Positions 24,461 to 58,547 of a stretch of DNA of 64,000 bases are shown piece by piece. The notes below the pieces were generated by a model that was not told the origin of the DNA, searched no databases, and saw only the letters and a program-made list of their open reading frames with translations. Every line of letters starts with the position of its first letter. The stretch's first letter is position 1. This DNA is from Gossypium raimondii (taxonomy: Eukaryota > Streptophyta > Magnoliopsida > Malvales > Malvaceae): contig NC_068567.1 of the NCBI RefSeq assembly GCF_025698545.1, forward strand, positions 3,100,001-3,164,000, written 5' to 3'. Position numbers and translations under genes: made by a program.

Positions 24461-26375
24461 ATGAGTGGCTTGATGAAGCTTGTAATTCTTGTCCCATGTT
24501 CTTTGTTCTTCGCAGCTTTAGTAAAGTTCCTTTATGATTACCTGTGGAGACCTCTCCGTATACAGCAAATGCTGAATTCACAGGGAATCAGAGGACCGCC
24601 TTACAGATTCATCCATGGCAACAACAAAGAAGTTGCCAAAATGAGACAAGAAGCATTAAGCAAGCCTATGGCCTTGAGGCATGATATATTTCCTAGAGTG
24701 CATCCACATATTTACACCTGGATCAACAAATATGGTAAGATCCATGCATGTTTTTCACTATGATTTCTAAATTCTAGTTCTAAGAAAAGATTGACCCTTT
24801 TGTTTATTTTATTTGGTCAGGGAAGAATTATCTTTCTTGGGATGGTGTTCGAGCTGAACTTGTGATTTCAGAACCTGAACTAATCAAAGAGGTTCTAAAA
24901 AATAGTGAAAAAGCTTTTCCCAAAAGGAAGCTTACAGTTTTCCTTACCAAGCTAGTAGGGAACGGGCTTGTGACAGTGGAGGGTGAAAAATGGGTGAAGC
25001 AACGGAAGTTGGGGAATTATGCTTTTCATGGGGAAAGCTTAAAGGTGAGACACTCTTAACATGTGAATTAGTTCTCTAAATCTTGCTTACATATGTTGTT
25101 GCTTACATGTTGATGGCTTGTTTGTGCAGAACATGACACCGGCAGTTATTTCCAGCGTTGAAACAATGCTAGAAAAGTGGAAAGGCTATGTGGGCAAAGA
25201 GATTGAACTGTTTGAAGAATTTAGATTATTAACTTCAGAAGTGATATCGAGAACAGCTTTTGGTAGCAGTTACTTGGAAGGGCAGAAAATTTTTTACATG
25301 TTGAGCAAGTTGGCAATAATTGCGAACCGAAATCTTTTCAAGACCAGAATTCCTTGGATCAGGTATGTTCCCTCTAAGCTTAATTTATCCCTAATTTAAA
25401 ATTGTTGATTCCCATGGATTTCGGGTTTTTTTTTTTCCCATATATAGACCTAACCTTGGTTTCCTTTTACAGCAAGTTATGGAAACCTGCTGATGTTCTT
25501 GAGTCAGAAGAACTTGCAAATGAAATACAGAGTTGTGTGATGAAGATGATTAAGAAAAGAGAAGACAGAGTTGTGAATGGAGGAGCTGATAGCTTTGGCA
25601 ATGATTTTCTAGGATTACTTGTAAATGCCTATCATGATTTGGACGACAAAAACATGCTTTCATTGGGAGACTTGGTAGATGAGTGCAAAACATTCTACCT
25701 TGCTGGACAAGATACTGTTAATTCCTTACTTGCTTGGACAATCTTCCTTTTAGCAATCCATGGAGATTGGCAAGAGAAAGCAAGAAGAGAGGTAATTGAC
25801 ATATTTGGTAACCAAAATCCACATTCTGAAGGCATTGTCAAACTCAAAATTGTAAGTGTCTTCCATGAATTTGAATAGTGACAGCAACATTAAATTATGT
25901 GATGTAATCTGACATATTTCTATTCTACAAACAGATGACCATGATCATTAATGAAACTTTAAGATTATATGGTCCAGCAAATGGCCTAATGAGAAAAGTT
26001 GGAAGAGAAGTTCAGATTGGAAAGCTAGTGTTACCTGCTAATATAGATCTTTATATTGTAAATGTTGTACCTCAACATGACCCTCAACTATGGGGAGACG
26101 ATGTGCATCTTTTTAAACCAGAGAGGTTCGCAGAAGGAATTGCCAAAGCTACCAATTACAATGCAGCTGCATTTTGTCCCTTTGGAATTGGACCTCGGTC
26201 TTGTGTTGGTATGAGCTTTGCAACCATGGAAACAAAGATTGCGCTCTCCATGATTCTTCAACGCTATACCATTTCCCTCTCCCCTGCTTATGTCCACTCA
26301 CCAATATCTGTTGTCACCATTCAACCAGAACATGGAATTCAAGTAATACTCAAGTCACTGCACAGCAATGTTTAA
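24461..26375 (+). CDS. CYP749A: P450-3: CYP749A-like cytochrome P450, intact
   Basis: Exons are 24461-24734, 24821-25044, 25130-25362, 25473-25851 and 25935-26375, giving 516 codons plus stop; introns are 83-110 bp. Anchor MSGLMKLVILVPCSLFFAAL is followed by LYDYLW and GPPYRF. The I-helix AGQDTVN is at 321-327, GDWQEKARREV at about 341-353, ETLR at 377-380, KPERF at 431-435, and the haem loop FGIGPRSCVG with Cys 460. All P450 hallmarks are present, so it is predicted functional. P450-4 is its recent duplicate: exons 1-4 are nearly identical, and the pair differs mainly right after ETLRLYG. ATG 24461 is well supported by conservation with P450-4, -5, -6, -7 and -8. Confidence 0.95.
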
Positions 26376-26449
26376 TGTACATGGTTGCTATGAATTCAGG
26401 GTTTAACCTTGCTGGTTTAGGATTTCTTGTTTAAGAGATTGCATTTAAT

Positions 26450-26606
26450 ATGTTAATTAAATGCTTACTTTACAATTTCGTGTGTTACAAATCACCTACT
26501 TAAATTGTCTACGCTGTATCTTTTTATCTAGAAAAAAAAATCTCCCCCAACAAGATGCTTTGCATACCGAATGGTGAGAACGATGTAGAAGATTCAAGAA
26601 ATAAGT
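26450..26606. repeat. Direct repeat, left copy, flanking an LTR fragment
   Basis: TTAATTAAATGCTTACTTTACAATTTCGTG...GCATACCGAATGGTGAGAACGATGTAGA.GATTCAAGAAA recurs at 27585-27740. The same sequence is single-copy 3' flank behind P450-4 (38430-38580). It is far too long for a target-site duplication. Confidence 0.85.
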
Positions 26607-27582
26607 CATTAAAAAATCGCGGAAAGGACTAAATTGAAATCGCGGAAAAATCGTGGGGTAAAATTAAAAAAATAAAAGTACTTGGTTGTAAAGCCATTAA
26701 AAAGCAGAAGGGCTAAAGGTACAATTAATCCTCCAACAAAACGGTCGGATCCTTGGCGGTTCGGTCGGGTCGATCCGATCTAGGTCAAAACGACGTCGTT
26801 TTGGGCGTTTTGGAGCTGGGCCAAAACGGCGCCGTTTTATGCGCCTATATAAGCCAAGTTTTTTTTTTTTAATTTCATTTTCCCTTTCTTTAAAAAAAAA
26901 ATTCAAAAACACTCTCCCCTTTCCTCTCTTCCCCAGAAATCGGCAAGCCTTCGGCAAGGGCTCATCCATCTACCACCGATCGACAATGGGTCGCCAGACA
27001 CTACAAGGGAGCCAAAAATTTTATTTTTTTTTCGATGCACTGCCTTGGCTACCTTGAGCAACCACCGATGAAAGTAAAAAAAAATCTTTCCTTTTTCTTT
27101 TATTTAATATTTCGAAATAATAATAATAAAAATAAACGAAAACAAAAATAAAAAAAGGCACCTTTAGTTTTTTTTTTTTTTGAATCTCTTTTTCTATTTC
27201 TCCAAAAAAAGAACCCCCTTTTACAATGTTCGAATGACTTTATATATAGTCATTTTACAATTTTTGGTTCTATTTATTTTTGCTGTCCTTTCTTTCTGAT
27301 TTTGCAGGTGCAAGTGGCGGAACAGTTGGGCGGTGCAGGTGGCGGCAGCAGGCCTAGGGCGTTAGGGACGTGCGGCGCCTGAGCTAGGAGGCAGAAGACC
27401 CTAGGTGCGGCGCACCTAGAGTTTTGTTTATTTTTTGTTTTTTCTGTCATGTGGGCTGCTAGGGTTTAGGGTATTGGGCCTGCTGTAATTTGGGCTCTTT
27501 TATTTTTGGTCTGATTTGGGGTTTGGGTTTTAATTAATTTGTTTGAATCTTATTGGACCCCGGGCAAAATTTGGGTCTTACA
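26607..27582 (-). mobile_element. LTR fragment (first about 975 bp of the 2.55-kb LTR family, minus strand)
   Basis: On the minus strand it starts TGTAAGACCCAAATTTTGCCC at 27582. It then has the GGTGCGGCGC..CCTAGGGTCTT region and the AACGGCGCCGTTTTGGCCCAGC / AACGACGTCGTTTTG palindromes (about 26790-26840). The 3' part of the family (TA-rich core, CCTAACTTACTGG motifs) is missing. No target duplication was seen; direct repeats of 3' gene flank lie on both sides. Confidence 0.8.
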
Positions 27583-27584
27583 AT

Positions 27585-27740
27585 ATTAATTAAATGCTTA
27601 CTTTACAATTTCGTGTTTTACAAATCACATACTTAAATTGTCTATGTTGTATCGTTTTATTAAAAAAAAAAAAAACTCTCCCACAACAAGATGTTATGCA
27701 TACCGAATGGTGAGAACGATGTAGAGGATTCAAGAAAAGG
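27585..27740. repeat. Direct repeat, right copy, flanking an LTR fragment
   Basis: Second copy of the P450-3 3'-flank segment at 26450-26606. It begins at the LTR boundary and continues collinearly with the 3' flank of P450-4 (AGGGTAAATTTTGGGTACACAAATGATAATGTTGGCA). Confidence 0.85.
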
Positions 27741-27775
27741 GTAAATTTTGGGTACACAAATGATAATGTTGGCAC

Positions 27776-28464
27776 TAGAGGTGTCCATGGGCCGGGCTCG
27801 GGCCGGGCCCAACAAAAAATTTCAGCCCGCTTCCTAGGCTCGGGCCCGGCCCGGCCCGAAATATGGGCCTGAGATTTTGCCCAGGCCCGGCCCGGGAAAA
27901 AAATATGGAACCCGAGCCCGGCCCGGCCCGCTTTTTAATTAAAATTAAAATTATATTTTTATTAAAATTAAAACTAATTGTTATTAAAATTAATTGTTAT
28001 CAAAATTAATTATTATTAAAATTGTATCAAATTATATATTTTTTGTACCAATCAACATTTTGTAAAATCTAACATTTTGTTAGTAAAATTATTAATTGTA
28101 TTAATTGTTACTAAAATTATCAAATTATATCAAATTATTAATTATTAATTGTTACTAACATTTTGTTAGTAAAATTATTAATTGTTAATTGTATTAATTA
28201 TTAGTAAAATTATCAAATTACATCAAATTATTAATTGTTAATTGTATTAATTGTTGTAACAAAATCTAAAATTTTGTAACTTAAAATAAAACTAAAACTA
28301 GTATATTTTAAAAATAAAAAAATATATATTTAATATATTTTCGGGCCGGGCCCGGGCCAAAAAAATCTTGCCCGAGGCCCGGCCCGTTTTCTAAACGGGC
28401 CTCGTTTTTTGCCCAAGCCCATACTTCGGGCCTATATTTTTACCCAAACCCTCCCATATTTCGG
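27776..28464. mobile_element. hAT-like element with GGGCCGGGCCC-rich ends, right terminus deleted
   Basis: Left end TAGAGGTGTCCATGGGCCGGGC resembles the TIR of the MITE at 15265. The arms are made of GGCCCGGCCCG repeats around an AT-rich core, and the right arm is the inverse of the left. The insertion point is clear by comparison with the P450-4 flank (TTGGCATCAAAGGACGGAGATAC), where it is absent. The right TIR and eight host bases are gone. A diverged relative is at about 47380-48006. Confidence 0.75.
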
Positions 28465-28545
28465 GCGGAGATACAACCCAATGCCATCAATATTTTCCCA
28501 ACCATTGATTTTGATGCGTGAGTTTTGTAAATCATTCCATTCCTT

Positions 28546-28740
28546 CAACCACAACATAGAATTCAAGTAATACTTGAGCCGCTGCATAGCTGTTAAGAAC
28601 TAGGGGTTTAACATAGCTGGTTCGAGTATTCACTTGTAAGAGATGACATTTAGCATGTCTAAGGTGTTACAAACTTAAGAAAAAGAAAAAGGAATGAATT
28701 TCTTCGTAAAAGAAAAAATATTACTGCTTAATTTTCAAAC
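28546..28740 (+). pseudogene. Relic of a ninth P450: last 17 codons plus 3' flank
   Basis: CAACCACAACATAGAATTCA onward reads QPQHRIQVILEPLHSC and stop (28546-28596), the C-terminus of this family. The flank after the stop (AAGAACTAGGGGTTTAACAT...TTCACTTGTAAGAGATGACATTTAG...) matches the P450-2 3' flank (21952-22080), not that of P450-3/4. It follows P450-3/4-type 3' flank (CATTCCATTCC) abruptly. This is the scar of a gene related to P450-2 lost by deletion or unequal crossing-over. Confidence 0.85.
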
Positions 28741-28741
28741 T

Positions 28742-29440
28742 TTGTTTTTGGAATTTTGGATTACCCAATCCAAGTTCAATGTAAACCTTATGCATAAAAA
28801 ATACAATATATAATTGGTCACACCAACACAACGATCCAAAAAACACTCACATATTTTAATAATAATTATATTTATCTAAATAATCATATCTCTTAATTAT
28901 TAATCAATAGATACAATTATACTTGTTTTAATAATTAAAAAAAATAACTTTTCACCAATAACTGGTCAGCTATAATTTGGAACGTTTCCATTTGGTCAAA
29001 TTTCGTAATTAAACTAATTTGCTGAAGTGAACAAAGCGTTATAGGCAGTGATGTTTGTTAAGTTCTAATATAATATAAATTTATGTAATAATATTCATAC
29101 AAAATATAATTAAAATAATATTTATTCTATGAAATTAATTTTAAATATTTTAAGAAAAATTTAAAAGTTGAATTCAAAGTAGAAATAAATATATAAAAAT
29201 AATTTAAGAAAAATTTGAAGTCAAATTCAAAATATAATAATATAAACAATAAAAATATAATCTTTCTATTTAAAATTTCTAAAGTCAATTTAGTCTTAGT
29301 CATCCTCATTCTATGTTTTCTTTTTTTATTGTTAGTGTCAGTTTTTCTATCTAACTCCGTAAATATATTATTGCAAGACTTGCATTGTCTTGTACCATTC
29401 GAGATAACATGCAGCACTTGATGAAAGTCATTTCCAAAAA
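28742..29440. repeat. Segmental duplicate of 39782-40395 (P450-5 upstream region)
   Basis: TTTGTTTTTGGAATTTTGGATTACCCAATCCAAGTT..., GGAACGTTTCCATTTGGTCAAATTTCGTAATTAAACTAA and TTGTACCATTCGAGATAACATGCA occur in the same order in both segments. It fits the upstream flank of another lost gene. The two overlapping ORFs at 29127-29421 are AT-rich noise. Confidence 0.75.
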
Positions 29441-29690
29441 AATTTTATACTAAGTGGTAGAAAGAGTCAAAATTGGTTGCTCATTCTTTCAATAAATCCC
29501 TTATTCATAGGTCTAATTAACTTTTGTAACTTCAAAGAACATCAGCATTAGCCATTATTTTATTATAAGGCCAACACTAGTCTTAATTTTTTCTATTTTC
29601 AAATAATACTTGAATTCCCCATCTCACGTTATGTTATTGACAAAAATATTTTAAAAGTTTTTAAGTCCAAAACTTAGTTTGAATTACAAT

Positions 29691-32600
29691 TGTCGAAATC
29701 TTTTTTTTTAAAAAAATGGGGTCGACTTGGATTTTGAAAACGAAACGAATATAGAAGTCGCCATCAATCTTTTTTGATGATGTGTGATCGGGTCACCTCG
29801 TAAAGTGGTTGTTTTTAATAAATGGTTTAGATTTATTAAAACAATGTTTTTGGTCTGCGAGATTCAAAAAAATGGGTTCGGGAGTCGGTCACGTACAAGG
29901 AAGGATTAGCACCCTCATAACGCCCAAAATTGGTACCTAGTTGATTAATTAGTGTCTTAGTGTCGAAAATTGAAAACTTTAAAGAGATTTAAAATCCGAT
30001 CATTTGCTAAAATATTGAAAATTTTCAAGAAAGAGCATATTTCACGTTAATCAAGAAAGAGAATTATGTCCCGTAAGGTAGGATACAATGTCTTAAATTC
30101 CCGATACGAGAATAAATACCGAAAAATTCACTTATTTGAAAGATATTCGATTATCTCGGTTTTAAAAAAAGATCATATTCCGTAAGTTAGAACACGATCT
30201 TTTATTAATTCCCGAGATTATTAAAAATTTATGCTTAAAAAGGTTCGTGTATTTGGATTTGTCGAGAAAATCGAAACCCCGTAAGTTAGGGCACGACCTT
30301 TTCGAATCTCAAAATACGAAGTTTTACTTATTTTAAAGTCATAATTTATGTATCGAGTAAAATTAATGTAACACGAATTGGTAGAAATAAAGTACGGTGT
30401 TAATATGTATAACGAAAAATAATAAATGCGATAAAATAAATATAAATAATATGAGTGAAAACAAAATAAGATAAATAAATAAATAAATAAGGACAAATCA
30501 ATTATGTATATACAATAACAAGTAAATAAAAATAAAACATTTTTAAAGAATAATAATGGACACATAAATAAATAAGTAAATTAATTTAATAATAATAGTA
30601 ATAAAATAAAATATAGAAACAAAAAAGTACAAAAAATAAAGATAGTTTTAAACACTAAAGTACCAATAAATAGTAACTATGTATTTAAAAAAATAGTAAA
30701 AATATGAAAGTAAAATAAAACAAAATCTATATAAAGAAAATAATAATAGCATAATAATATTACATTAATTAATTTAATAAAGAAATAGCCAAAATAACAA
30801 AAAGGACTAAATTGAGCTTTAAAACAAAATTTTGGGGCAAATCAGAAATAAATAAAAGGATAAGGGCTAAATTGGATGATCAAATAACAAGGAGGGACCA
30901 AATGGGAAATATTCCCTATCCTCCAAAACGCGCAGTTCCAATATGGACTAAAATGAAACAGGTGCAAAAATTACGGGGTAAAATTAAAAGAAAAAAGGCA
31001 AAGAGGACTAAATTAAAACAACCCAAAAATGCCGAAGGACCAAAAGAGTAAATAACCCTTTTTACACAAAAACACGCGGATCCTCCTGGATCGGGTCGGG
31101 TCACGCGCGGGTTGGCCCCAAAACGATGTCGTTTTGGCGGCTGAAGCTATGGCCCAAAACGGCGCCGTTTTACATGCCTATATAAATCAATTTTTTTAAA
31201 AAAAAAACTTCATTTTTGCCTTCTCTTAAAAAAAAACTAAAATCTCTTCTCTCTTTTTTTCAAAATCCTCTTCACCCTTCCCAGAATCCGGCCATCGGCC
31301 GCTGCGCCCACCGCCGGCCACCGGCGACGGTGCCACCATACATGATGGCCGGAAGTCCAAAAGGTACGCTTTTTTATATATTTTTTTTGCTATATATACA
31401 TATATATAGTTTTTTTTTTTAAAAAACAAAACAAAAGTAAAAAATAAAAGGTTTCAGAAACTAAAAGAAAAAAAGGAGAGACATTTTGCTCGCTCTCTTG
31501 TTTTCCTTAAATATGCTTGTAAGACCCAAATTTCACCCGGACCCATACCAGCAAAACAAATACAGAAACCCAATAACCTAGACCAAAACCCAAAGCCCAA
31601 CAAAATAAGCCCAAACCCGAATCAGGCCTAAAACAATTAGTCAAACTAGGGTTTCAGCTTTTCTGAAAGCCTAGTGCCGCCGCCGTCATCACATCAACAA
31701 GGCAAGTGGTGCGTTTTCCCTTTGCCATCGACCTACCCACTGCCACCTGCTCCATCAACGTCAAATACCTGTAAACAAGCAAGAAGAAGAGGGGTAGCAA
31801 CAACAGTAGAAAATAAAAAATTTTGTAACAAATCAGCTATAAAAAGCCGAAGGTAATCTCTGAAAAAGGGTTTTTTTTATGAACATCAGAGCATAAAAAG
31901 CAACATTTTAGAGGTGATCCTCTACTGTTCTTTCAATATTAGTTTGATTTTTTTTATTTGGTCTTTTTTTGTTTCTTTGTTATTTAAATAATAAAATAAA
32001 AAATGGAAAAGGAGGACTCACCGGGGAACCCTTGTAACCACATCGCCGGATGGGGTCTACGCCACCGTTGGGGCCGCATCCGAAAGGAGGCTGGGGCTCT
32101 CCTCTTGCGTTTCGGCGTTGAGAGGGTTCAACCCCTGAGAGCGCTGTGAAACGAAGGCTAAAAAGCCCATTTTCTCCATCGCTGTCCCCGGCCATGGCGG
32201 TCGGGCGGCGGACGGACGGTGGAGCCTTAGGCCGAAAAGGGGTGGGGGTGAGAGAGAGATGGGGATTTTTGAATATTTTTTTAAAAAAAAACATAGCAGA
32301 AATGAGGCTATTCAGAAAATTTTGGTATTTAAGGAGGCATTAAATGGCATCGTATTTGGACTTAGGGTTTAGAGGCCAAAACGACGTCGTTTTGGCCTCT
32401 GACCTGCGACCCGACCCGATGGCCCTGAGGATTTGTGTGTTTTCGTAAAAGGGGCTATTTGCGCAATAGGCCCCTTCGCCTTTGCAAAGTTTTCGATGCG
32501 GTCTTTGTTGCATTTTCTAATTTTGGCCACATAATTTTGTTTCTTTTTTTATTTGGTCCATAGACCATGCATAGGTGCCTCCTTGGGGCGACGCCGTTTT

Positions 32601-35060: not shown

Positions 35061-35109
35061 AATTACATCAATCTCAAAACTCTATATTTTTAGATTTAAT
35101 AGCAAAACA

Positions 35110-36408: not shown

Positions 36409-38350
36409 ATGAGTGGCTTGATGAAGCTTGTAATTCTTGTCCCACGTTCTTTGTTCTTCGCAGCTTTAGTAAAGTTCCTTTATGATTACCTGTGGAGACC
36501 TCTCCGTATACAGCAAATGCTGAATTCACAGGGAATCAGAGGACCTCCTTACAGATTCATCCATGGCAACAACAAAGAAGTTGCCAAAATGAGACAAGAA
36601 GCGTTAAGCAAGCCTATGGCTTTGAGGCATGATATATTTCCTAGAGTGCAGCCACATATTGACACCTGGATCAACAAATATGGTAAGATCCATGCATGTT
36701 TTTCACTATGATTTCTAAATTCTAGTTCTAAGAAAAGATTGACCCTTTTGATTATTTTATTTGGTCAGGGAGGAATTATCTTTCTTGGGATGGTGTTCGA
36801 GCTGAACTTGTGATTTCAGAACCTGAACTAATCAAAGAGGTTCTAAAAAATAGTGAAAAAGCTTTTCCCAAAAGGAAGCTTACAGTTTTCCTTAGCAAGT
36901 TATTAGGGAACGGGCTTGCGACAGTCGAGGGTGAAAAATGGGAGAAGCGACGGAAGTTGGGGAATTATGCTTTTCATGGGGAAAGCTTAAAGGTGAAACA
37001 CTCGTAACATGTGAATTAGTTCTCTAAATGTTGCTTACATATGTTGTTGCTTACATGTTGATGGATTGTTTGTCCAGAACATGACACCGGCAATAATTGC
37101 CAGCGTTGAAACAATGCTAGAAAAGTGGAAAGGCTATGTGGGCAAAGAGATTGAAGTGTTTGAAGAATTTAGATTATTAACTTCAGAAGTGATATCGAGA
37201 ACAGCTTTTGGTAGCACTTACTTGGAAGGGCAGAAAATTTTTTACATGTTGAGCAAGTTGGCAATAATTGCGAACCGAAGTTTTTTCAAGACCAGAATTC
37301 CTTGGATCAGGTATGTTCCCTCTAAGCTTAATTTATCCCTAATTTAAAATTGTTAATTCCCATGGATTTCGGGGTTTTTTTTCCATATATAGAGCTAACC
37401 TTGGTTTCCTTTCACAGCAAGTTATGGAAATCTGCTGATATTCTTGAGTCAGAAGAACTTGCAAATGAAATACAGGGTTGTGTGATGAAGATGATTAAGG
37501 AAAGAGAAGACAGAGTTGTGAATGGAGAAGCTGATAGCTTTGGCAATGATTTTCTAGGATTACTTGTAAATGCTTATCATGATTTGGATGACAAAAACAT
37601 GCTTTCATTGGGAGACTTGGTAGATGAGTGCAAAACATTCTACCTTGCTGGACAAGATACTGTTAATGGCTTGCTTGCATGGACAGTCTTACTTTTAGCA
37701 ATCCACGGAGATTGGCAAGAGAAAGCAAGAAGAGAGGTGATTGACATATTTGGTAACCAAAATCCACATCCTGAAAGCATTGTCAAACTCAAAATTGTAA
37801 GTAAACTATCAAACCAATTCAATATATATCTTGTCTTCCATGGATTTGAATAGTGACAGCAACATTAAATTATGTGATGTAATCTGACATATTTCTATTC
37901 TACAAACAGATGACCATGATCATTAATGAAACTTTAAGATTATATGGTCTACAAAATGGCATAATAAGAGAAGTTGGAAGAGAAGTTCAGATTGGAAATC
38001 TAGTGTTACCTGCTAATATAGATCTTTATATTGCAAATGTTGTACCTCAACATGACCCTCAACTATGGGGAGACGATGTCCATCTTTTTAAACCAGAGAG
38101 GTTCGCAGAAGGAATTGCCAAAGCTACCAATTACAATGCAGCTGCATTTTGTCCGTTTGGAATTGGACCTCGGTCTTGTGTTGGTATGAGCTTTGCAACC
38201 ATGGAAACAAAGATTGCACTCTCCATGATTCTTCAACGCTATACCATTTCTCTCTCCCCTGCTTATGTCCACGCGCCAATATCTGTTCTCGGCATTCAAC
38301 CAGAACATGGAATTCAAGTAATACTCAAATCACTGGACAGCAGTGTTTAA
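36409..38350 (+). CDS. CYP749A: P450-4: CYP749A-like cytochrome P450, intact, near-duplicate of P450-3
   Basis: Exons are 36409-36682, 36769-36992, 37078-37310, 37418-37796 and 37910-38350, giving 516 codons plus stop. Motifs and positions are as in P450-3: AGQDTVN 321-327, ETLR 377-380, KPERF 431-435, and haem loop FGIGPRSCVG with Cys 460. The clearest difference is just after ExxR. P450-3 reads LYGPANGLMRKVG; this gene reads LYGLQNGIIREVG, losing the Pro that all other copies keep. This is the SRS5 region, so its substrate range may differ. Intron 4 (113 bp) is 30 bp longer than in P450-3. Predicted ER-bound monooxygenase; substrate unknown. Confidence 0.95.
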
Positions 38351-38429
38351 TGTACATGGTTGCTATGAATTCAGGGTTTAACCTTTCTGGTTTATGAATT
38401 CTTCTTTAAGAGATTGCATTTAATATGTT

Positions 38430-39775: not shown

Positions 39776-39781
39776 AAAATC

Positions 39782-40685: not shown

Positions 40686-42602
40686 ATGAGTGGCTTGATG
40701 AAGTTTGTAATTCTTGTCCCATCTTCTTTCTTCCTCGTAGCTTTGATAAAGTTCCTTTATGATTACTTGTGGATACCTCTCCGTATACAGCATATGCTGA
40801 ATTCGCAGGGAATCAAAGGACCTCGTTACAAATTCATCTACGGAATCAACGATGAAGCTACCCAAATGACAAAGGAAGCATTAAGCAAACCCATGGCCTT
40901 GACGCATGACATATTTCCCAGAGTGCAGCCACATATTTACTCATGTATCAACAGATATGGTAAGATCTGTGCATGTTCTTTCACTATGGTTTCAATCTTC
41001 CAGTTCTAAGAAAAGATGAACCCTTTTTGTTTTTTGTTTGATTAGGGAGGAATTTTCTTTATTGGGACGGTGTCCGACCTGAACTTGTGATTTCAGAACC
41101 TGAACTAATTAAAGAGGTTTTGAAAAATAGTGAAAAAACTTTTCCCAAAAGGAAGCCTACCATTTTCATTAACAAGCTACTAGGGAACGGGCTTGTGACA
41201 GTGGAAGGTGAAAAATGGGTGAAGCAGCGGAAGTTGGCGAATAACGTTTTTCATGGGGAAAGCTTAAAGGTAAACCCCTCGAAATATATGGATTAGATGT
41301 AAACTAATGTAAAAGAATTTTATATTATTGGAGAATTCTTTGGGCTGGACATGAGACCAGGAATAATTGCTAGCGTTGAAACAATGCTAAAGAAGTGGAA
41401 AGGCCAAGTAGGCAAAGAGATCGAAGTGTTCCATGAATTTAAATTATTGACTTCCGAAGTGATCTCGAGGACAGCTTTTGGTAGCAGTTACTTGGAAGGG
41501 GAGAAGATTTTTGAAATGTTGAACAAGTTGTCAATAGTTCTGAGCCGAAATCTTTCCAATACTGGAATTCCCTTATTCGTGTATATTGCCTCTAAGCTTA
41601 ACTGATCCCTCAATTTTTCCAAGATATAGAGCTAACCTTGATTTGCTTTTACAGCAAGTTACAGAAACCTGCTGATATGCTAGAGGCAGAAGAACTTGCA
41701 AAAGGAATACAGGACTGTGTGTCGAAGATTGTGAAAACGAGAGAAGACAAAGTTGTGAAGGGAGAGGCTGATAACTTTGGCATTGATTTTCTAGGATTAC
41801 TTATAAATGCCTACCATGATACGGACGAAAATAACAAACTTTGATTGGAAGACTTGGTAGATGAGTGCAAAACATTTTACTTTGCTGGACAAGATACTGT
41901 TAATTCCTTACTTGCTTGGATGGTCTTACTTTTAGCAAGTCATGGAGATTGGCAAGAGAAAGCGAGAAGAGAGGTGATTGAGATATTTGGTAACCAATAT
42001 CCAAATTCTGAAGGCCTTTCTAAACTCAAAATTGTAAGTAAACTGTCAAACCCTTTCAATACATTGTGTATACCCGGCATTTAAATCAAAGTCATAAAGG
42101 CTGTTAGTACATAAAAAATCCTGGTCTATACTCTTTAGTCTACTCTGACATATTCCTATTCTGCAAACAGATGACCCTGATTATTAATGAATCTCTAAGA
42201 TTGTATGGTCCAGCAGTTGGCCTATTGAGGAAAGGTGGAAGTGAAGTTCGGTTAGGAAATCTAGTCTTGCCTGCTGATATAGATATTCTTATTGCAAATG
42301 TTGCACTTCACCATGACCCTCAACAATGGGGAGATGATGTGCATCTTTTTAAGCCAGAGAGATTCGCCGAAGGGGTTGCCAAAGCTACCAATTACAACAC
42401 AGCTGCATTTTGTCCCTTTGGATTGGGACCTCGAACTTGTGTTGGTACAACCTTCGCACTCATGGAAGCGAAGATTGCAGTCTCCATGATTCTACAACGC
42501 TACACCATTTCCCTCTCCCCTGCCTATGTCCACGCGCCAGTATCTATTATCACCGTTAAACCACAACATGGAATACTCGAGTCACTGCATCACGATGCTT
42601 AA
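40686..42602 (+). pseudogene. P450-5: CYP749A-like P450, two lesions
   Basis: Exon equivalents are 40686-40959, 41046-41269, 41348-41580, 41655-42033 and 42171-42602, nominally 513 codons. Two defects are visible. The acceptor before exon 3 reads GGGCTG|GAC where all paralogs have CAG|AAC, and no nearby AG restores frame. TGA at 41842-41844 in exon 4 replaces a Ser codon, about 15 residues before the I-helix motif. The rest looks intact: AGQDTVN, GDWQEKARREV, ESLR, KPERF, haem loop FGLGPRTCVG. Three codons near the C-terminus are deleted. N-terminal and exon 2 sequence is close to P450-6. The lesions are few and the frame is otherwise clean, so inactivation is recent. A truncated product would lack the haem-binding half. 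Confidence 0.92.
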
Positions 42603-42609
42603 ACTACAC

Positions 42610-44532: not shown

Positions 44533-46587
44533 ATGAGTGCCTTGATGGAGCTTGTAACTCTTGTCCCATGTTGTTTCTTCTTCATAGCTTTAATAAAGTT
44601 CCTTTATGATTACCTATGGATACCTCTCCGTATACAGCATATGCTGAATTCACAGGGGATCAAAGGACCTCCTTACAGATTCATCCATGGCAACAACAAG
44701 GAAATCGCCAAAATGAGACAAGAAGCATCAATCAAACCTATGGCCTTGACGCATGATATATTTCCCAAAGTGCAGCCACAGATTTACTCCTGGATCAACA
44801 AATACGGTAAGATCCATGCATGTTTTTCACTATGGTTTCAATCTTCTAGTTCAATTAAAAGATGGACCCTTTTTTTGCTTTTTGTTTGATTAGGGAGGAA
44901 TTATCTTTTTTGGAACGGTGTTCGAGCTGAACTTGTGATTTCAGAACCTGAACTAGTGAGAGATACTAAAAAATAGTGAAAAAACTTTCCCGAAAAGGAA
45001 GCCTACCATTTACCTTAGCAAGCTACTAGGGAAGGGGCTTGTGACGGTTGAGGGTGAAAAATGGGCGAAGCAGAGGAAGCTGGCGAATTACGCTTTTCAT
45101 GGGGAAAGCTTAAAGGTGAACCCCTCGAAACATGTGATTAGTTGTAAACTAATGTTAAAGAATTTTATATTGTTGGAGAATTGCTTTTGCAGAACATGAC
45201 ACCAGCTGTAATTGCTAGCGTTGAAACAATGCTAGAGAAATGGAAAGGCCAAGAAGGCAAAGAGATTGAAGTGTTCCATGAATTTAGATTATTGACTTCA
45301 GAAGTGATATCAAGAACAGCTTTTGGTAGCAGTTACTTGGAAGGAGAGAAGGTTTTTGCCATGTTGAACAAGCTGTCAATAATTATGAGTCGAAATCTTT
45401 ATAATACTAGAATTCCTTTGATCAAGTATGTTCCCTCTAAGCTTAATTAATCCCAAGTTTTTCCTTAATTGTGTTTTCCACCCCCATGAATTTATTTTTC
45501 TCCTTATATATGGCTAACATTAGTTTTCTCTTCTAGCAAGTTATGGAAACCTGCCGATATGCTAGAGTCTGAAGAACTTGCAAAAGAAATACAATATTGT
45601 GTGATGAAGATGGTTAAGAAAAGAGAAGACAGAGTTGTGAATGGAGAAGCTGATAGCTTTGGGAATGATTTTCTAGGATTACTTGTAAATGCCTATCATG
45701 ATTCGGACAAAAATAACAAGCTTTCAATGGAAGATCTGGTGGATGAATGCAAAACATTCTATTTTGCAGGACAAGATACTGTTAATGCCTTGCTTGCCTG
45801 GACAGTCTTGCTTTTAGCAATCCATGGAGATTGGCAAGATAAAGCAAGAAGGGAGGTGATTGGCATATTTGGTAACCAAAATCCACAACCGGAAGGCATT
45901 GCAAAACTCAAAACTGTAAGCAAACTTTCTAACCATTTAAGACCGCACGCATTGTGTTACAGTCAATATTTTGTAGTTTCGACTCTTTCTACATTGATAT
46001 TCATTGCTAATATTTACCACAATTAATTGCGATAACATCCATCATATACAACACTGCCATAATTTAAATCCCCGGTGTATGCTAGCATGAGTTTAGAACA
46101 TTAGATTATGTGATGTTAATCTTATATATTCCTATTCTGTATACAGATGACGATGATCATTAATGAAACTCTAAGATTGTATGGTCCATCAAATGGAATG
46201 TTGAGAAGAGTTGGAAGAGAAGTTCAAATGGAAAAGGTAGTCCTCCCTGCTAATATAGATATTCTAATTGCAAATGTTGCACTTCACCATGACCCTCAAC
46301 TGTGGGGAGAAGATGTGCATCTTTTTAAACCAGACAGATTTGCGGAAGGGATTGCCAAAGCTACCAATTACAATACGGGTGCATTTTTTCCCTTTGGATT
46401 GGGACCTCGAACTTGTGTTGGTATGACCTTTGCAACCACAGAAACCAAGATTGTTCTCTCCATGATCCTACAACGCTATGCTATTACCCTTTCCCCTGCC
46501 TATGTCCACTCACCAATACCTATAATCAGCCTTAAACCACAACATGTAATTCAAGTAATGCTCAAGTCACTGCATAGCGATGCTTGA
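44533..46587 (+). pseudogene. P450-6: CYP749A-like P450 with a 2-nt deletion in exon 2
   Basis: Exon equivalents are 44533-44806, 44894-45115, 45193-45425, 45537-45915 and 46147-46587. Exon 2 is 222 nt where every paralog has 224. The deletion lies between about 44955 and 44967, in the codons following SEPEL, and a TAG at 44974-44976 ends translation after about 118 residues. All splice sites, AGQDTVN, GDWQDKARREV, ETLR, KPDRF and haem loop FGLGPRTCVG are otherwise intact. KPDRF (Glu to Asp) differs from all siblings. It has the appearance of a very recent null allele; a base error in the assembly would look the same. Intron 4 (231 bp) is the longest of the array. Confidence 0.88.
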
Positions 46588-46589
46588 TG

Positions 46590-48006: not shown

Positions 48007-48794
48007 AGTAAAGGCCACCAAAAAAAATAAAAAGGCAAGTTTGAGACTTTAAGGAGAGTGAATTGTTGAGGGAGGTAGAGGTTATATACTAAGACTATTT
48101 CTCTTAATCGTAATTAAAATATTCAATATTAATAACAGTGATTAATCCTATAATTAATCATGAAAAATATTTTTTTATGAGCGAAAATTCAACCTCAAAT
48201 CACTTAATTAAAGGTTAAAAGAATAAAATCAATATATTATGATTGGATACAAAAAAGATAAAGCTCACAAATATCCAAATACAAAGTTGAAATCCACATC
48301 ATCAACATATATCATACAACGGATCTTCAAAGGAATGAAAATATTAGTATATAATGAATAAAGAAATCAAGGAAACCCCAAATGCCAAAATCACTCTACA
48401 CGTACAGCCTCCAAATGCAGCTAATGCCGACACTTGTGTGTTGAGATAGTAAATGATGTCGACAAATGTCAAAAAAATTATTTATTGATGTATATGTAAC
48501 TATTTTTTTGTCAAGGTAATAGCTATAAATAGTTATCGACTCTGTATGATCATTACGCTTCAATTGGATTATTCTATTCTATCTCTTAGAACGAAAAGAA
48601 CTTAAATCAAAATATTTAGTAGCATGGCGATACATTTATACAAAACTTCTACCACGGGCGCATGCAATGGAGCCGTAGTCAGTCAAGTGAAATCTAATCC
48701 ACGAAATAATTTGATCTATGGATAGTATTGTTATGGTAAAGGTTGTAATGCTAGAGGAATCATTACCGCAAGGCATAGAGGAGGAGATCATAAG

Positions 48795-50013: not shown

Positions 50014-50021
50014 ATCATAAG

Positions 50022-50763
50022 CATCTATACTGTAAAATTAATCTTCGACGAAATGGAAAAGACATATATAATAAAATCGTAACCATAAAATACAACCCTA
50101 ATCGAAATGCATATATTTATCTCAATATCTCTCTCAATTCGATCACTCTGTACAATACTCATTCATAAGAAAATGTTTTATATTTTGGAACTTATTTTAT
50201 TTGAGTTTTATTAGTTATCATGATTTGAAGTGAGAATTAATACTCGTATATTTTACATCAATTCGCTAATGAAAATTAAATAAATCATCTTTTTAAAAGA
50301 AGCAACGTTTAAGAATTTTATAAAATGAAAATCATTAAATTCTTTAATAAATATTTATATAATATTTTATATTTCACACCATAATTGATTATAATGATCT
50401 AATCGAACATGTCAGTCGATTAATATATTTAAATAAATAAATTTCTAATTTATTATACTAATATATATAATATTAATGAAAACAAATTGTCAATAGATAC
50501 AAATTGTCTAATGATACAAATCTAGGACTTCAATTGAAGATGATCTTCAAAGATCATGAAAGTCGCATTCTGCACCAGTTGACTTTCACAAATTAATTAG
50601 TTGTTTACACGTTCAAAGTTGCTTCTTTTTTTAAAAAAATAAATAAGTAAATTTCTAATTTTAAAATGATAAAAACGAAAAATTAGTTGTCAAGACCCTA
50701 CAAATTGAATAAAATAATTCTAAATCTCTCTTTTACTATGCAATAATTGTCAACCTAAACTCA
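50022..50763. other. Intergenic DNA upstream of P450-7
   Basis: AT-rich; no gene was seen. The last about 130 bases (CAAATTGAATAAAATAATTCTAAAT.TCTCTTTTAC.ATGCAATAATTGTCAACC) match the P450-8 promoter at 56544-56676. Confidence 0.55.
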
Positions 50764-50773
50764 CCATAAATAG
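50764..50773 (+). promoter_or_regulatory. Probable TATA box of P450-7
   Basis: CCATAAATAG, 45-55 bases before the ATG, is conserved as CCATAAATAC before P450-8 (56624-56633). Confidence 0.45.
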
Positions 50774-50817
50774 AAAGCTAAAGGAGCATTTCAATTCGTT
50801 GTTGAGAGAAGAAAAAA

Positions 50818-52690
50818 ATGAGTACCTTGGTGAAGCTGGCAATTCTTCTCCCATGTTCTTTCTTCCTCGTAGCTTTGATAAAGTTCCTTTATGATTACTT
50901 GTGGATACCTCTCCGTCTACAGCATATGATGAATTCACAAGGAATCAAAGGACCTCCTTACACATTCATCCATGGAAACAACAAAGAAGCTACCAAAACG
51001 ACAAATGAAGCCTTAAGCAAACCTATGGCCCTGAGACATGATATATTTCCCAGAGTGCAGCCACATGTTTACTCATGTGTCAACAGATATGGTAAGATTC
51101 CATGCATGTTTTGCACTATGGTCTCGATCTTCTGGTTCTAAAAAAAGAATGACCTTTTTTTAAAAATTTGATCAGGGAGGAATTATCTTGCTTGGGACGG
51201 TAAGCAACCTGAACTGGTGATTACAGAACCTGAACTTGTCAACGAGGTTCTCAAAAATAGTGTGACAACTTTTCCGAAAAGAAAGCCTACTTTTTTTCTC
51301 ACTGGGATATTTGGGAACGGGCTTGTGACAGCTTTGGGTGAAAAATGGGTGAAGCAACGGAAGTTGGCGAATTATGCTTTTCATGGGGAAAGCTTAAAGG
51401 TAAAACTCTCCAAACATGTGAATTAGTTGTCTAATTAATCTTCTTATATGTTGGAGTATTGATTGTGCAGAACATGACACCAGCTGTTATTGCTAGTGTT
51501 GAAACAATGCTAGAAAAGTGGAAAGGCTATGTAGGCAAAGAGATAGAAGTGTATCATGAATTTAGATTATTGACTTCGGAAGTGATATCCAGAACAGCTT
51601 TCGGTAGCAGTTACTTGGAAGGGGAGAAGATTTTTGACATGTTGAACAAGTTGTCAATAATTAGGAGCCGAAATCTTTTCGAAACTCGAATTCCTCTGAT
51701 CAAGTATGTTCCCTCTAAAAGCTTATTTGATCCCTCGGTTTTGTCATATTACTGACCTTGGTTTACTTTTACAGCAAGTTATGGAAATCTGGTGATGTGC
51801 TAGAGTCTGAAGAACTTTCAAAAGGAATACAAGATTGTGTGATGAAGATTGTTAAGAAAAGAGAAGACAAAGTTGTGAATGGAGAAGCCGATAGCTTCGG
51901 CAATGACTTTCTAGGATTACTTGTAAATGCCTATCATGATTCGAATAAAAATAACAGGCTTTCAACGGAAGACTTGGTGGATGAGTGCAAAACATTCTAC
52001 TTTGCTGGACAAGATACCGTGAATTCCTTACTTGCATGGATAGTCTTCCTTTTAGCAATTCATGGAGATTGGCAAGAGAAAGCAAGAAGAGAAGTGATTG
52101 AGATATTTGGTAACCAAATTCCGAATTCTGAAGAGATGTCTAAACTCAAAATCGTAAGTAAACTGTCAAACCCTTTCAATATAATATTTTGTTGCAGCTA
52201 TTATTTAATTTTTTTAATGCAATGTGACACGTTCCTTTTCTGGAAACAGATGACCATGATTATTTATGAAACTCTAAGATTGTATGGTCCATCAAATGGC
52301 ATGATGAGAAGAACTGAAAGTGATGTTCAGTTAGGGAAGCTAATCTTGCCTGCTAATCTTGATCTTCTAGTTATACATGCTGCACCTCACCATGACCCTC
52401 AATTATGGGGAGATGATGTGCATCTTTTTAAACCAGAGAGATTCGCAGAAGGGATTGCCAAAGCTACCAATTACAATGCAGGTGTATTTTGTCCCTTTGG
52501 ATTGGGACCTCGAAATTGTGTTGGTATGAACTTTGCAACCACGGAAACGAAGATTGTGCTGTCCATGATTTTACAACGCTACACCATTTCCCTCTCCCCT
52601 ACCTATGTCCACTCACCAATACCTTATATCACCGTTCAACCACAACACGGAATTCAAGTAATACTCGAGTCATTGTATAATGATGCGTAA
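50818..52690 (+). CDS. CYP749A: P450-7: CYP749A-like cytochrome P450, intact
   Basis: Exons are 50818-51091, 51176-51399, 51471-51703, 51775-52153 and 52250-52690, giving 516 codons plus stop. The motifs are anchor LAILLPCSFFLVALIKFLY, GPPYTF, AGQDTVN (321-327), GDWQEKARREV, ETLR (377-380), KPERF (431-435) and haem loop FGLGPRNCVG (Cys 460). The exon 2 region (ITEPELVNEVLKNSVTTF, NGLVTALGEKW) differs from other pairs but is shared with P450-8. The residue before ETLR is Tyr where most copies have Asn. Intron 4 is 96 bp, a multiple of three with no stop in frame, so its retention would add 32 residues instead of truncating. Predicted active ER monooxygenase; substrate unknown. Confidence 0.94.
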
Positions 52691-52699
52691 TGTAACATA

Positions 52700-55600
52700 G
52701 CTGCTAAGAATTCCGAGTTTAATTTAGTGAAAAAATTATTTTATAAAATTTATATGTCAACAAGTAATTATATAATGTGGTTAACATAAGCTCCTTTCAA
52801 TTGGGAACCAACAAAGCTACCAAGTCACCAAAATTTTGCTTAACAAAGTCTAACGATTTAGCTTTTACTTTACTAATAACAACACCCAACTTATAACCAC
52901 CACTTATAACCACCATTAAAGTATATGTAGATAACAGAAGTATTATTTAATAATAATTTGTTAATATTATTTAATAATATTTGACGTTGTTACAATGTGT
53001 CGAGGGAACTGCCACTTCCTTCACCACTACGACAAAATAGCTTGTCATATTTGAAAATTTAACAATTTATTGAATCGAATCTTTGGACTATGTTAATTTT
53101 GTGGAATGATTTTAGCCTATCAATGAGAATCAATTCACTAAACATATTTTGAGAATTGTATCGGATTGAGTACATCAAATCCATTGGATCAAAGATGTTT
53201 GATCGAATCAAAATTGGAAGACTTATCTACCAACAATCCATTTTACTTTAGTTGTTAATATTATATTGTATTCGACTATTTTAGACATACAAGATTTTAC
53301 TAATTCATCTTCATTTGTCGAAAGAAGTCTATCCTCAAATTTCAACAAATTTCCACCACTAGCCATTTTCACAGTATCTGAATTTTATCTCCACACTTTT
53401 TTTTAACATTAATCTTATTATACTTAAAACTATCCATAGTCCCTCCTCAACCCTTAGATAGAAGGATAATACACTTCAGTGCACTCGAACCCACGCCCTG
53501 CTGCACTAACAACAATACCGATGCTAATCGAGTTAAGACTCTGACCACTAAAATATCACCATAAGCATAAATCTATAATCAAATTTATAATTAAAATACA
53601 AGTTTTTTACAAATACTTTATAAAAAAAACCATACTACAAAATTAAAACAAAGAAAAAGAACACATAAAAATAAGAATATAATAATATTTAAACAACTAG
53701 TAAAAAAAATATATTTTTCAAACACTTAAAAATAATATATATCAATATAACTACAATAATATAAATAATAATAAACTAACACTAAAAATATTTTTTACTT
53801 TAAAAAATCTAATGTCTTAAAAAACCCTAAAAAACATAAAAGTATAAAAAGTATAAAATGCACAAATCATAAAAATATCTAACACTTAAGGTAGATTTTG
53901 ATACATCTATATATATGTTGTAATTGAGAAAATAGAAAACGAGAGAAGAAAATGTTGGGAGAATGAGCAGTTTGTGCATTTATATATACAAAAATTTAAA
54001 GGATTAAATTGCATAAGAATTAAAACTATTATTCAACAATAATAATATACCCAATTGCTTACTTACCACAATTATTTGGCCTGCATGATTATTGTTTCAA
54101 GACCATGCATGCTTGTTGCCACCTTGCTTTTATATTTCTGCCATGCATGCTTGCTGCCATTATTTTTCTGCATGCCATGGTTGTTGTCACCCTTGCTGCC
54201 TCTTATTTTTCTACCTTGCATACCATTAGAATCCAAATGAAGTGCGTTTTAAAAATCTCTTACATTTAATCTTTACAGGCACCTGTCGAAATCAATCTTT
54301 AATCCCAATTTCATTTACTCTTTCAAGACTGTCCCTTTAGAGATTTTATGAAGAGAAGGAAAAACAATGGAATTGTAAAGATGGCACCCATAGAAACCTT
54401 AGAATGGTGGACGGTGCAACAGGGATCGAGCGGGTCTCCCTTGTCAATGATGAAATCACCTATATACTCTTTAAAGATTTTAGGGCTCTTAGTTTCGTCC
54501 CCAGAAGAAAAAGAAAGAAAAGTAAACAGATTGGTTTTAAGGTATTGGGAAAGTCGAATTAGAATTTAAATATATGTTTGTTTTCTTTAATTTAACTTTT
54601 TTATTTTTAAATTTTAATATATTTTTTATTTTTAAAATTTTAATATTTTTTATATATTTTTAAATAATATTATGACCTCTTTATGAAATCACCATTTTCA
54701 CATGTCACGATCTAAGATTGTCACGTGTCTTGAATATCAAAAACATTTACAAAATAAAAATTCAAGACCTAAATTGAGAAAAAAATATAAATATTAATTT
54801 AGGAGAAAGTGAGAAATACGAAGGCCAAATAAGCCTAATTAATATGATTCCATACATCTTGAGGTTAAAATAAAATTCAAGGTTTACTTAATTTTTTATA
54901 AAAATTATGTTAGGTCTAGTTAAAATTTAAAAAAAATTAAAAGGTTTAATGAGATTGACAAAAATTTTAGAGGATCTATTAAAAACATTGAAAGGTTTAA
55001 TGAGAAATTCCAAATTTGGGGCCTGATTTAATTTTTTAAAATTAATGGTCTAAAATGAATTTCAAAATTTTCTAAGGTCGTCCCGCTTCGCATTGGGTTG
55101 ATTATTTATTTTTAAAACTATAAAGAAAAATTTAAATGTTAAAATATGATCTAAGACATACACTTCAGATATTTGAATTTTAGTCTTCATAATCTTATTT
55201 TTAGAAATTTAATCAACTTCTTTTCGGATTTAAAATTTAGGATCTATTATTACCACTGTTAATATTCTTCTATTAAATTCATTGGTGTGACGTTTTGGAA
55301 CTTAGTTTCCATACTCTTATTTTAAATAATTTAATTATCTACTTTTCGATTTAAAATTCAGGACCCATTATTATCACCGTTAAAATTCCTCTATTAAATT
55401 CATTGGTGTGACGTTTTGGAATTTAAAATATATATATATTCACTTGGTCATCATGTAATAATAAAATAAAATTGAAAATACTAAATAGAATTTTTTTTCT
55501 TAAAACACTCATTCAAACTTTTCAGGATGAAATAATTTTTGGTGGAAATAGCATTCTTAAGAAACATTGACATCAACATTTTGATTGAAATAGATCATAA

Positions 55601-56543
55601 TATTAATGATTTAGACTCAATATTAACATTATAAAAATAGATGGGTCAAATTATGTTAAAATTTAAAATATATATTATTTTTAAGTTTCAACATAGTATA
55701 GGGTCAAACTGAAAATTGACTATAATATTAAAAAAAAAACCCCAAGGCAAACTTAAAAGAAAGGTAAAACCATGCTCAGTCTCTAAAACTGTTAGAGTAT
55801 TATTTCAATTATACGTAACCATTTAACATTTTAATAAAAATTAACTATATTAACTATTCGAACTAATTCATAACGTTATAAAAATATAAATAGAAAATCA
55901 AATTAGAAATTAAAGTATATAGATTAAATTTCAAATTTAAAAATAATAGAACCACAAATAAAATTTAATCATTTTATAATAAAAAAGGGTGATGATGTTT
56001 ACTGTGTTAACAAAAAGTCCACATATATATATACAATCAACCCTCTTTATAATAACCGCCCTTAATAACAACTAAATTTTATAGTAGAACCAATTTTTAT
56101 GTTTTATTTTAACATTCTATAACAATTTTTCACGTGTAACAACAATAACCATAGTTTTAAAGTACATTATTTATTAAATTTTTAAGTAAAATTAGAGTTA
56201 TTTCATATAAACGAGCCTATTAACTATAATTTATTAAATAAAAATTATCTTAACTAAAATATTTAAATTCCACATGAAAAGCCTATTACTCATATTTTAT
56301 TAAATGAAAATAATTTTTCAATAAATGAAATGAAATATATCTATTGAATAAACTATCAAGTTTTCTCGTTCTTTTCTTACAATAATTTCTATTTTTTCAT
56401 TATATGAATTATTGCTGCCTCTCTATAAAAAATAAAATTTTGACAGATAAATAAAGTTATTATAGAAAAAGTAATAACGGAACCAAATACCTTATCGATT
56501 AATTTTAAAATGATATGCACCAGAAAATAATATCCAAAGAACC
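52700..56543. other. Intergenic DNA between P450-7 and P450-8
   Basis: AT-rich with no supported gene. A local tandem duplication of about 115 bp lies at about 55197-55420 (CTATTAAATTCATTGGTGTGACGTTTTGGAA twice). CCCTCCTCAACCCTTAGATAGAAGG...CAGTGCACTCGAACCCACG (about 53440-53500) looks like a dispersed plant repeat. GCATGC-rich, T/C-rich text at 54060-54240 gives low-complexity ORFs. The 73-residue ORF at 54348-54569 has no recognisable features. Confidence 0.55.
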
Positions 56544-56623
56544 TACAAATTGGCAGGCAAATTAATAAATAAAATAATTCTAAATATCTCTTTTACCATG
56601 CAATAATTGTCAACCTAAATTCA

Positions 56624-56633
56624 CCATAAATAC
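56624..56633 (+). promoter_or_regulatory. Probable TATA box of P450-8
   Basis: CCATAAATAC is aligned with the P450-7 element in an otherwise matching promoter, so the promoter seems intact although the gene is broken. Confidence 0.4.
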
Positions 56634-56676
56634 AAATGCTAAAGGAGCATTTCCATTCATTGTTGAGAGACGAAAA

Positions 56677-58547
56677 ATGAGTGCCTTGCTGAAGCTTGCA
56701 ATTCTTGTCCCATGTTGTTCCTTCATCGTAGCTTTAATAAGGTTCCTTTATGATTACTTGTGGAGGCCTCTCCGTCTACAGCATAAGATGAGTTCACAGG
56801 GAATCAGAGGACCTCCCTACAGCTTCATCCATGGAAACAACAAAGAAGCTACTAAAATGACAAAGGAAGCATTAAGCAAACCTATGGCCTTGAGGCATGA
56901 TATATTTCCCAGAGTGCAGCCACATATTTACGCATGTGTCAATAAATATGGTAAGATTCCATGCATGTTGTTCTCACTATGGTTTCGATCTTCTAGTTCT
57001 AAGAAAAGATTGACCCTTTTTTTTTTTTTTGATTAGGGAGGAATTATCTTTCTTGGGACGGTAATCGACCGGAACTAGTGATTACAGAACCTGAACTTGC
57101 CAACGAGGTTCTCAAACATAGTGTGACAACTTTTCCGAAAAGGAAGCCTACTGTTTTTGTCAGTAGGATATTTGGGAATGGTCTTGTGACAGCTTTGGGA
57201 GAAAAATGGGTGAAGCAACGGAAGTTGGCGAATTATGCTTTTCATGGGGAAAGCTTACAGGTAAAAACGCTCTAAACATGTGAATTAGTTGTCTAAATCT
57301 TTCTTATATGTTGGAAGATTGATTGTGCAGAACATGACACCAGCTGTAATTGCTAGTGTTGAAACAATGCTAGAAAAGTGGAAAGGCTATGCAGGCAAAG
57401 AGATGGAAGTGTATCATGAATTTAGATTATTGACTTCGGAAGTAATATCCAGAACAGCTTTCGGTAGCAGTTACTTGGAAGGGGAGAAGATTTTTGACAT
57501 GTTGAACAAGTTGTCAATAATTAGGAGCCGAAATCTTTTCGAAACTCGAATTCCTCTGATCAAGTATGTTCCCTCTAAAAGCTTAATTGATCCCTCGGTT
57601 TTGTCATATTACTGACCTTGGTTTACTTTTACAGCAAGTTATGGAAATCTGGTGATGTGCTAGAGTCTGAAGAACTTTCAAAAGAAATACAAGATTGTGT
57701 GATGAAGATTGTTAAGAAAAGAGAAGACGAAGTTGTGAATGGAGAAGCCAATAGCTTCGGCAATGATTTTCTAGGATTACTTGTAAATGCCTATCATGAT
57801 TCGGATGAAAATAACAGACTTTTAATGGAAGACTTGGTGGATGAGTGCAAAACATTCTACTTTGCTGGACAAGATACTGTTAATTCCTTACTTGCATGGA
57901 TAGTCTTCCTTTTAGCAATTCATGGAGATTGGCAAGAGAAAGCAAGAAGAGAAGTGATTGAGATATTCAGTAACCGAATTCCGGATTCTGAAGGCATGTC
58001 TAAACTCAAAACTGTAAGTAAACTGTGAAACTCTTTCAATACAATATCGTGTTGCAGTTATTTATCTTCTTTAATGTAACCTGACATAATCATATTCTTC
58101 AAATAGATGACTATGATTATTTAGGAAACTTTAAGATTGTATGGTCCACCAAATGGCCTACCAAGAAGGGTTACAAAAGAAGTGCAGTTGGGAAAGCTAG
58201 TCTTGCCTGCTAGCATAGATATTTTGGTTCAAAATATTGCACCTCACCATGACCCTCACATGTGGGGAGATGATGTACATCTTTTTAAACCAGAGAGATT
58301 TGCAGAAGGGATTGCCAAAGCTACCAATTACAATGCAGGTGCATTTTGTCCCTTTGGATTAGGACCTCGAAATTGTGTTGGTATGAACTTTGCAACCATG
58401 GAAACGAAGATTGTGCTCTCCATGATTCTACAACGCTACACCATTTCCCTCTCCCCTACCTATGTCCACTCACCAATACCTTATATCACCGTTCAACCAC
58501 AACACGGAATTCAAGTAATACTTGAGTCACTGGGTAATGATGCTTAA
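56677..58547 (+). pseudogene. P450-8: CYP749A-like P450 with a nonsense codon before ExxR
   Basis: Exon equivalents are 56677-56950, 57037-57260, 57331-57563, 57635-58013 and 58107-58547, all of normal length with GT-AG splice sites. TAG at 58122-58124, the sixth codon of exon 5, lies directly before the ETLR codons. Translation would stop after about 375 residues and lose ExxR, PERF and the haem loop (FGLGPRNCVG is still encoded downstream). No other lesion is visible. At this codon P450-7 has TAT (Tyr) and the other copies AAT (Asn). Exons 1-4 and the end of exon 5 match P450-7 closely, including intron 3, while the first 50 codons of exon 5 resemble P450-2 in part, suggesting gene conversion. 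Confidence 0.92.

Follow-up and report, generated by a model that had tools for sequence, protein, structure and literature searches.

Divergence after the ExxR motif among tandem cytochrome P450 genes of Gossypium raimondii

A stretch of 64,000 nucleotides from the genome of Gossypium raimondii (assembly GCF_025698545.1, NC_068567.1, referred to here as contig C3, bases 3100001-3164000; hereafter the window) includes eight cytochrome P450 genes. These genes differ from each other in the 12 residues that follow the ExxR motif of helix K. It is likely that they belong to a tandem array evolving by birth and death, in which this segment changes at a near-neutral rate and is reshuffled between copies, while the core of exon 5 stays conserved. 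The 12 residues past ExxRLYG would form a turn and a strand lining the substrate pocket, corresponding to substrate recognition site 5 (SRS5). They would evolve at a rate close to neutral (ratio of nonsynonymous to synonymous rates, omega, of about 1), and ectopic gene conversion or unequal exchange would also reshuffle segments between copies. Together, the two processes may have left nearly every copy with a segment of its own.

Variability of the segment after ExxR

Exon 5 of all eight copies encodes E-[TS]-L-R-L-Y-G followed by the 12-residue segment. The segment is different in each of the eight (Table 1), and its letters are those given in an earlier note on this DNA, which had drawn attention to the pattern. 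That note placed the pattern at 25935-58280, an interval limited to copies 3-8; copies 1 and 2 have their segments outside it. Among 24 copies of the array, 20 distinct segments were recognized. In the alignment of the eight window copies, the segment corresponds to codons 384-395. The proportions of nonsynonymous (pN) and synonymous (pS) differences, calculated by the Nei-Gojobori method over 28 pairs whose counts are not independent, are 0.307 and 0.252 in the segment, as compared with 0.118 and 0.271 for the remainder of exon 5 and 0.118 and 0.269 for the whole gene. By pN, the segment ranks first among 505 twelve-codon windows of the gene, and its pS is at the gene mean.

Codon models were fitted with our own implementation using F3x4 frequencies; in the site models and the partition tests, branch lengths were kept at their M0 values apart from a common scaling factor. 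In the partition test of the 24 array copies, omega was 1.07 for the segment and 0.40 for the rest (likelihood-ratio statistic 32.6, p = 1.1 × 10−8; the partition p-values, here and below, are optimistic because the segment was picked by the author of the earlier note after seeing it). The expectation that the ratio would stand above that of the remaining exon 5 was thus borne out, at about 1.0 against 0.4. The segment omega is clearly raised over the rest, but it is not above 1 (omega of 1 is not rejected, p = 0.66), and therefore positive selection is unproven.

In a residue-by-residue alignment of an intact copy with the CYP3A4 and CYP3A7 chains, the segment takes the position immediately past ExxR. 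This stretch of CYP3A is SRS5, and the alignment agrees with the earlier assignment of the segment to this site. The Arg at exon-5 position 20, inside the segment, is unchanged in 24 of the 24 array copies and invariant in an alignment of 26 sequences; it is presumably the residue that holds a heme propionate. The residues of the segment are inferred to contact the substrate, and it is plausible that the intact copies differ in substrate preference. A structure predicted for exon 5 alone has a mean predicted local distance difference test score of 35.4, too poor for use.

The flanks of the segment had been described as nearly invariant. This holds upstream (exon-5 codons 1-13, pN 0.023) and fails downstream (codons 26-35, pN 0.143). 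Codon 13, the G of ETLRLYG, is Gly in all 24 array copies; of 12 related copies from elsewhere in the genome, nine have Pro at this codon, two Ser, and one Thr. Two further stretches of exon 5 are variable among the eight copies, codons 36-52 (pN 0.241) and codons 124-130 (pN 0.319). Over the 24 array copies, the segment is 10th among 125 exon-5 windows and is outranked by those around codons 35-52, and over the 16 array copies outside the window it ranks 15th of 125, with the top window starting at codon 35. Thus, the segment after ExxR is one of three peaks of exon 5. Codons 36-52 (26040-26090 in copy 3), past the SRS5 segment, are about equally variable, with an omega of 0.79 in a four-part fit. 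Codons 124-130 (26304-26324 in copy 3), which are SRS6-like, gave the strongest signal, an omega of 1.55, above 1 at p = 0.028 for a stretch that was picked after looking at the data. Other gene windows with top pN in the eight copies are codons 407-418, 127-138, 492-503, and 228-239. By their position in the CYP3A alignment and the usual SRS definitions, codons 127-138, 228-239, and 492-503 presumably correspond to SRS1, SRS2, and SRS6, and codons 407-418 to no classical SRS.

Copies 3 and 4 had been regarded as near identical except in the segment. This cannot be maintained: they are 92.8% identical, and 32 of their 37 residue differences fall elsewhere. The five differences inside the segment are an excess with permutation P = 0.0006 for this segment specified in advance, and P = 0.08 when any twelve-codon window along the gene is allowed.

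Related P450 copies elsewhere in the same genome served as controls; their group counts leave out L043, L046, and L052-L056 (of 18 stretches). The segment window ranks fourth of 125 both in a cluster of five copies on C13 (pN 0.155, against 0.055 in the core) and in a cluster of five copies on C1 (0.155 against 0.023), and fifth of 125 among the 12 related non-array copies (0.336 against 0.119). Codons 124-130 form a peak in all three sets. Codons 36-52 form a clear peak in the C1 and 12-copy sets, and a weak one in C13 (0.084 against 0.055). Since the control clusters peak at the same segment, the variability is a property of these P450s and not of this array, and an array-specific novelty is ruled out.

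Exchange and selection

The copies of the array have a mosaic ancestry. Trees of exon 4, exon-5 codons 1-60, and exon-5 codons 61-136, built from 22 of the 24 array copies (L015 and L026 were left out), differ from each other by the approximately unbiased test in six of six comparisons (p ≤ 0.0026). Copies 7 and 8 differ at 1.4% of intron 3, at 19/379 positions (5.0%) of exon 4, and at 6/210 (2.9%) of exon-5 codons 61-130; between these regions, they differ at 19/93 positions (20.4%) of intron 4 and 37/180 (20.6%) of exon-5 codons 1-60. The sharpest segment contrast, that between copies 7 and 8, is explained by this conversion-like tract. Both flanking trees pair copies 7 and 8 (bootstrap 82 and 91), but in the tree of the block they part, copy 8 joining L019 (85) and copy 7 joining L033 (99), which points to copy 8 as the likely recipient of the exchanged block. 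L014 has a nearest relative in the block that differs from that in either flank. Copy 1 is nearly identical to L011 and L014 through exons 3 and 4, and diverges from them from intron 4 onward.

These observations would fit a history in which the segment diversity was mainly moved, with ectopic conversion carrying a block made of the end of intron 4 and the first ~60 codons of exon 5 from copy to copy. Such a history is possible but doubtful. After Bonferroni correction, only three of 231 pairs are discordant in the block, and they trace to two block changes, those of copy 8 and L014. In addition, among the 29 other copies compared, none was closer to the copy 4 segment than copy 3, and therefore the changes in copy 4 look like point substitutions, or their donor was not sampled. 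It is improbable that the region between the end of intron 4 and exon-5 codon ~60, including SRS5 and the second variable stretch, is a swap cassette by which ectopic exchange passes whole substrate-contact blocks from copy to copy. If it were, new enzyme specificities would arise in single events.

A single foreign conversion tract was considered for the whole pattern and is ruled out, since the pS of the segment is not elevated over the rest of exon 5; a tract does account for copies 7 and 8.

Because the three trees disagree with one another, the selection tests were repeated on a local tree of exon-5 codons 1-60. There, omega was 1.02 for the segment against 0.42 for the rest (p = 2.8 × 10−6; tested against 1, p = 0.93). 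When the lesion-bearing copies 5, 6, and 8, L020, and L026 were left out, the 19 copies kept of 24 gave 1.01 against 0.41. On the local tree, the eight window copies gave 1.09 against 0.35, and the five intact ones 1.44 against 0.36 (tested against 1, p = 0.23). In none of the sets of 5, 8, 19, and 24 copies is the omega of the segment distinguishable from 1.

Positive, diversifying selection on SRS5, giving each copy a new substrate specificity, is rather unlikely as the cause of the pattern. It is favored by the comparison of M1a with M2a in the eight full genes (likelihood-ratio statistic 7.1, p = 0.029), which singled out one codon, 389, with a posterior of 0.96, and by that of M8a with M8 in the 24 exon-5 copies on one tree (p = 0.041, codon 389 at 0.94). 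The six nonsynonymous and zero synonymous differences between the segments of copies 3 and 4, and the omega of the five intact copies, point in the same direction. However, the same 24 copies gave p = 0.27 for M1a-M2a and p = 0.07 for M7-M8, and with the local tree the hint of positive selection was gone (p = 0.85, 0.58, and 0.15). That the segment omega is indistinct from 1, even in the five intact copies, also argues against such selection. Exchange between gene copies is moreover known to raise false positives in selection tests. Simple decay, with drift of the segment in a declining array whose genes no longer matter, is highly improbable: three of the eight window copies are broken and lesions are also found in L020, L026, and probably L012, but the pN/pS of the exon-5 core stays at 0.21-0.26 across the sets from the array and the window (0.21 for the five intact copies of the window), and the omega of the rest of the block remains 0.41 without the broken copies.

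Several results weigh against near-neutral change with reshuffling in a conserved array. Exon-5 codons 36-52, which we do not take to be a classical SRS, are as variable as SRS5 and outrank it over the 24 copies; therefore, substrate contact cannot be the sole cause of the variability. The Shimodaira-Hasegawa test fails to reject one of the six tree comparisons (the data of the 3′ part of exon 5 on the exon-4 tree, p = 0.12). Intron 1 also differs between copies 7 and 8, by 15.5%, and the history of the two copies is therefore more mosaic than one tract.

Gene models and extent of the array

All eight P450 genes were modelled on the forward strand with five exons each, based on conserved splice sites. 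The exon borders are at codons 91, 166, 243, and 370 of a 516-codon alignment of the eight copies. Five of the eight copies (1, 2, 3, 4, and 7) have open frames, and copies 5, 6, and 8 are broken (Table 1). In copy 2, intron 2 reaches 3109 nt (17627-20735); the introns compared in other copies are at most a few hundred bases. Copy 4, the only copy scanned, matches the Pfam p450 domain with an E-value of 1.6 × 10−65 over residues 89-487. The helix K motif ExxR is present as E-[TS]-L-R in all eight copies, as is the heme-thiolate loop, F-P-F-G-x-G-P-R-x-C-V-G (general P450 motif FxxGxRxCxG). AGQ[DE]T and W-[AVE]-K-x-R, which correspond to the I-helix motif AGx[DE]T and the C-helix motif WxxxR of P450s, are legible in seven in-frame translations, and in copy 6 through its exon frames.

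Table 1. Coordinates of the P450 copies, their segments after ExxR, and the conversion-like tract in the window.
Feature	Position	Strand	Sequence	Remarks
P450 copy 1	7093..9354	+		five exons, open frame; start is the second of the usual two methionines
P450 copy 2	17039..21951	+		five exons, open frame
P450 copy 3	24461..26375	+		five exons, open frame
P450 copy 4	36409..38350	+		five exons, open frame
P450 copy 5	40686..42602	+		broken: in-frame TGA in exon 4; exon-3 acceptor CTG, not CAG
P450 copy 6	44533..46587	+		broken: 2-nt deletion in exon 2
P450 copy 7	50818..52690	+		five exons, open frame
P450 copy 8	56677..58547	+		broken: TAG in exon 5, one codon ahead of the E of ExxR
Copy 1 segment after ExxR	8953..8988	+	PTSVLQRTGTRE	outside the interval of the earlier note
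Copy 2 segment after ExxR	21553..21588	+	PSNGLPRTVARE	outside the interval of the earlier note
Copy 3 segment after ExxR	25974..26009	+	PANGLMRKVGRE	
Copy 4 segment after ExxR	37949..37984	+	LQNGIIREVGRE	
Copy 5 segment after ExxR	42210..42245	+	PAVGLLRKGGSE	
Copy 6 segment after ExxR	46186..46221	+	PSNGMLRRVGRE	
Copy 7 segment after ExxR	52289..52324	+	PSNGMMRRTESD	
Copy 8 segment after ExxR	58146..58181	+	PPNGLPRRVTKE	
Copy 8 conversion-like tract	58014..58286	+		spans intron 4 and exon-5 codons 1-60; differs by ~20% from copy 7, flanks by 3-5%; limits approximate

Using exon 5 of copy 2 as the query, the same genome (750.8 Mb, 281 contigs) was searched for further copies. The array contains at least 24 near-complete exon-5 copies and three partial places, within 2918249-3179522 of C3 (~261 kb); the copy count is a lower bound. 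All 24 near-complete copies are on the forward strand. The same search revealed related exon-5 copies on C13, C10, C4, C1, and small contigs. Lesions of copies outside the window were checked without exons 1-3. The exon-5 acceptor of L012 is CTG, the frame of L020 stops in exon 4, and L026, whose exon 4 is matched only in part, has lost its frame at the start of exon 5.

Elsewhere in the window, a match to the Plant mobile domain was found at 4437-4844 on the reverse strand (E-value 1.7 × 10−18). An inverted repeat is formed by 12011-12341 and 12771-13101, with 331-nt arms that are 85% complementary. Tandem repeats with units of 77 and about 293 nt are present at 2746-3150 and 5262-6284, respectively. 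No match to RNA families was found within the window.

Comparison with known P450 systems

The SRS-focused divergence described here is known and expected P450 evolution, not a new kind. What is documented is one large tandem array in which stretches presumed to contact the substrate change at a neutral rate, and in which an SRS5 block appears to have been exchanged in at least two copies. The array genes are taken by us to belong to the CYP72 clan and to be probably of the CYP749 type. Support for these names comes only from PMC6131939. If they are correct, the family includes a known herbicide-tolerance gene. According to that paper, CYP749A16 of upland cotton, which is probably from the same family as the array genes, is needed for tolerance of a sulfonylurea herbicide and lies on D10 near 28.456 Mb (PMC6131939). 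A related exon 5 is found here on C10 at 28.091 Mb, although contig numbers may not match chromosome names. CYP749A16 is a separate locus from the array, with ~70% exon-5 identity to the query copy of the array if the C10 gene is its counterpart.

In a model of CYP72A, SRS5 belongs to the beta sheet that lines the entry channel, and SRS1, SRS3, and SRS5 are reported to differ most (PMC5036807). The CYP71AJ bloom likewise shows variability in SRSs, but no SRS site was credibly identified as positively selected, and its congruent positively selected sites outside SRSs were called likely false positives (PMC4482195). Like this array, the CYP72A and CYP71AJ blooms consist of recently multiplied P450s with differences concentrated in SRS1, SRS3, SRS5, and others (PMC5036807, PMC4482195). 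Unlike in these blooms, the signal here is resolved on one physical array with mosaic tracts.

The array also resembles the chimeric CYP337B3 of Helicoverpa armigera, in which neighbouring P450 genes reportedly recombined into a new combination (PMC6211633). The CYP337B3 chimera is linked to resistance (PMC6211633), whereas the mosaics of the array are inferred from sequence alone, and the clearest one, copy 8, is broken.

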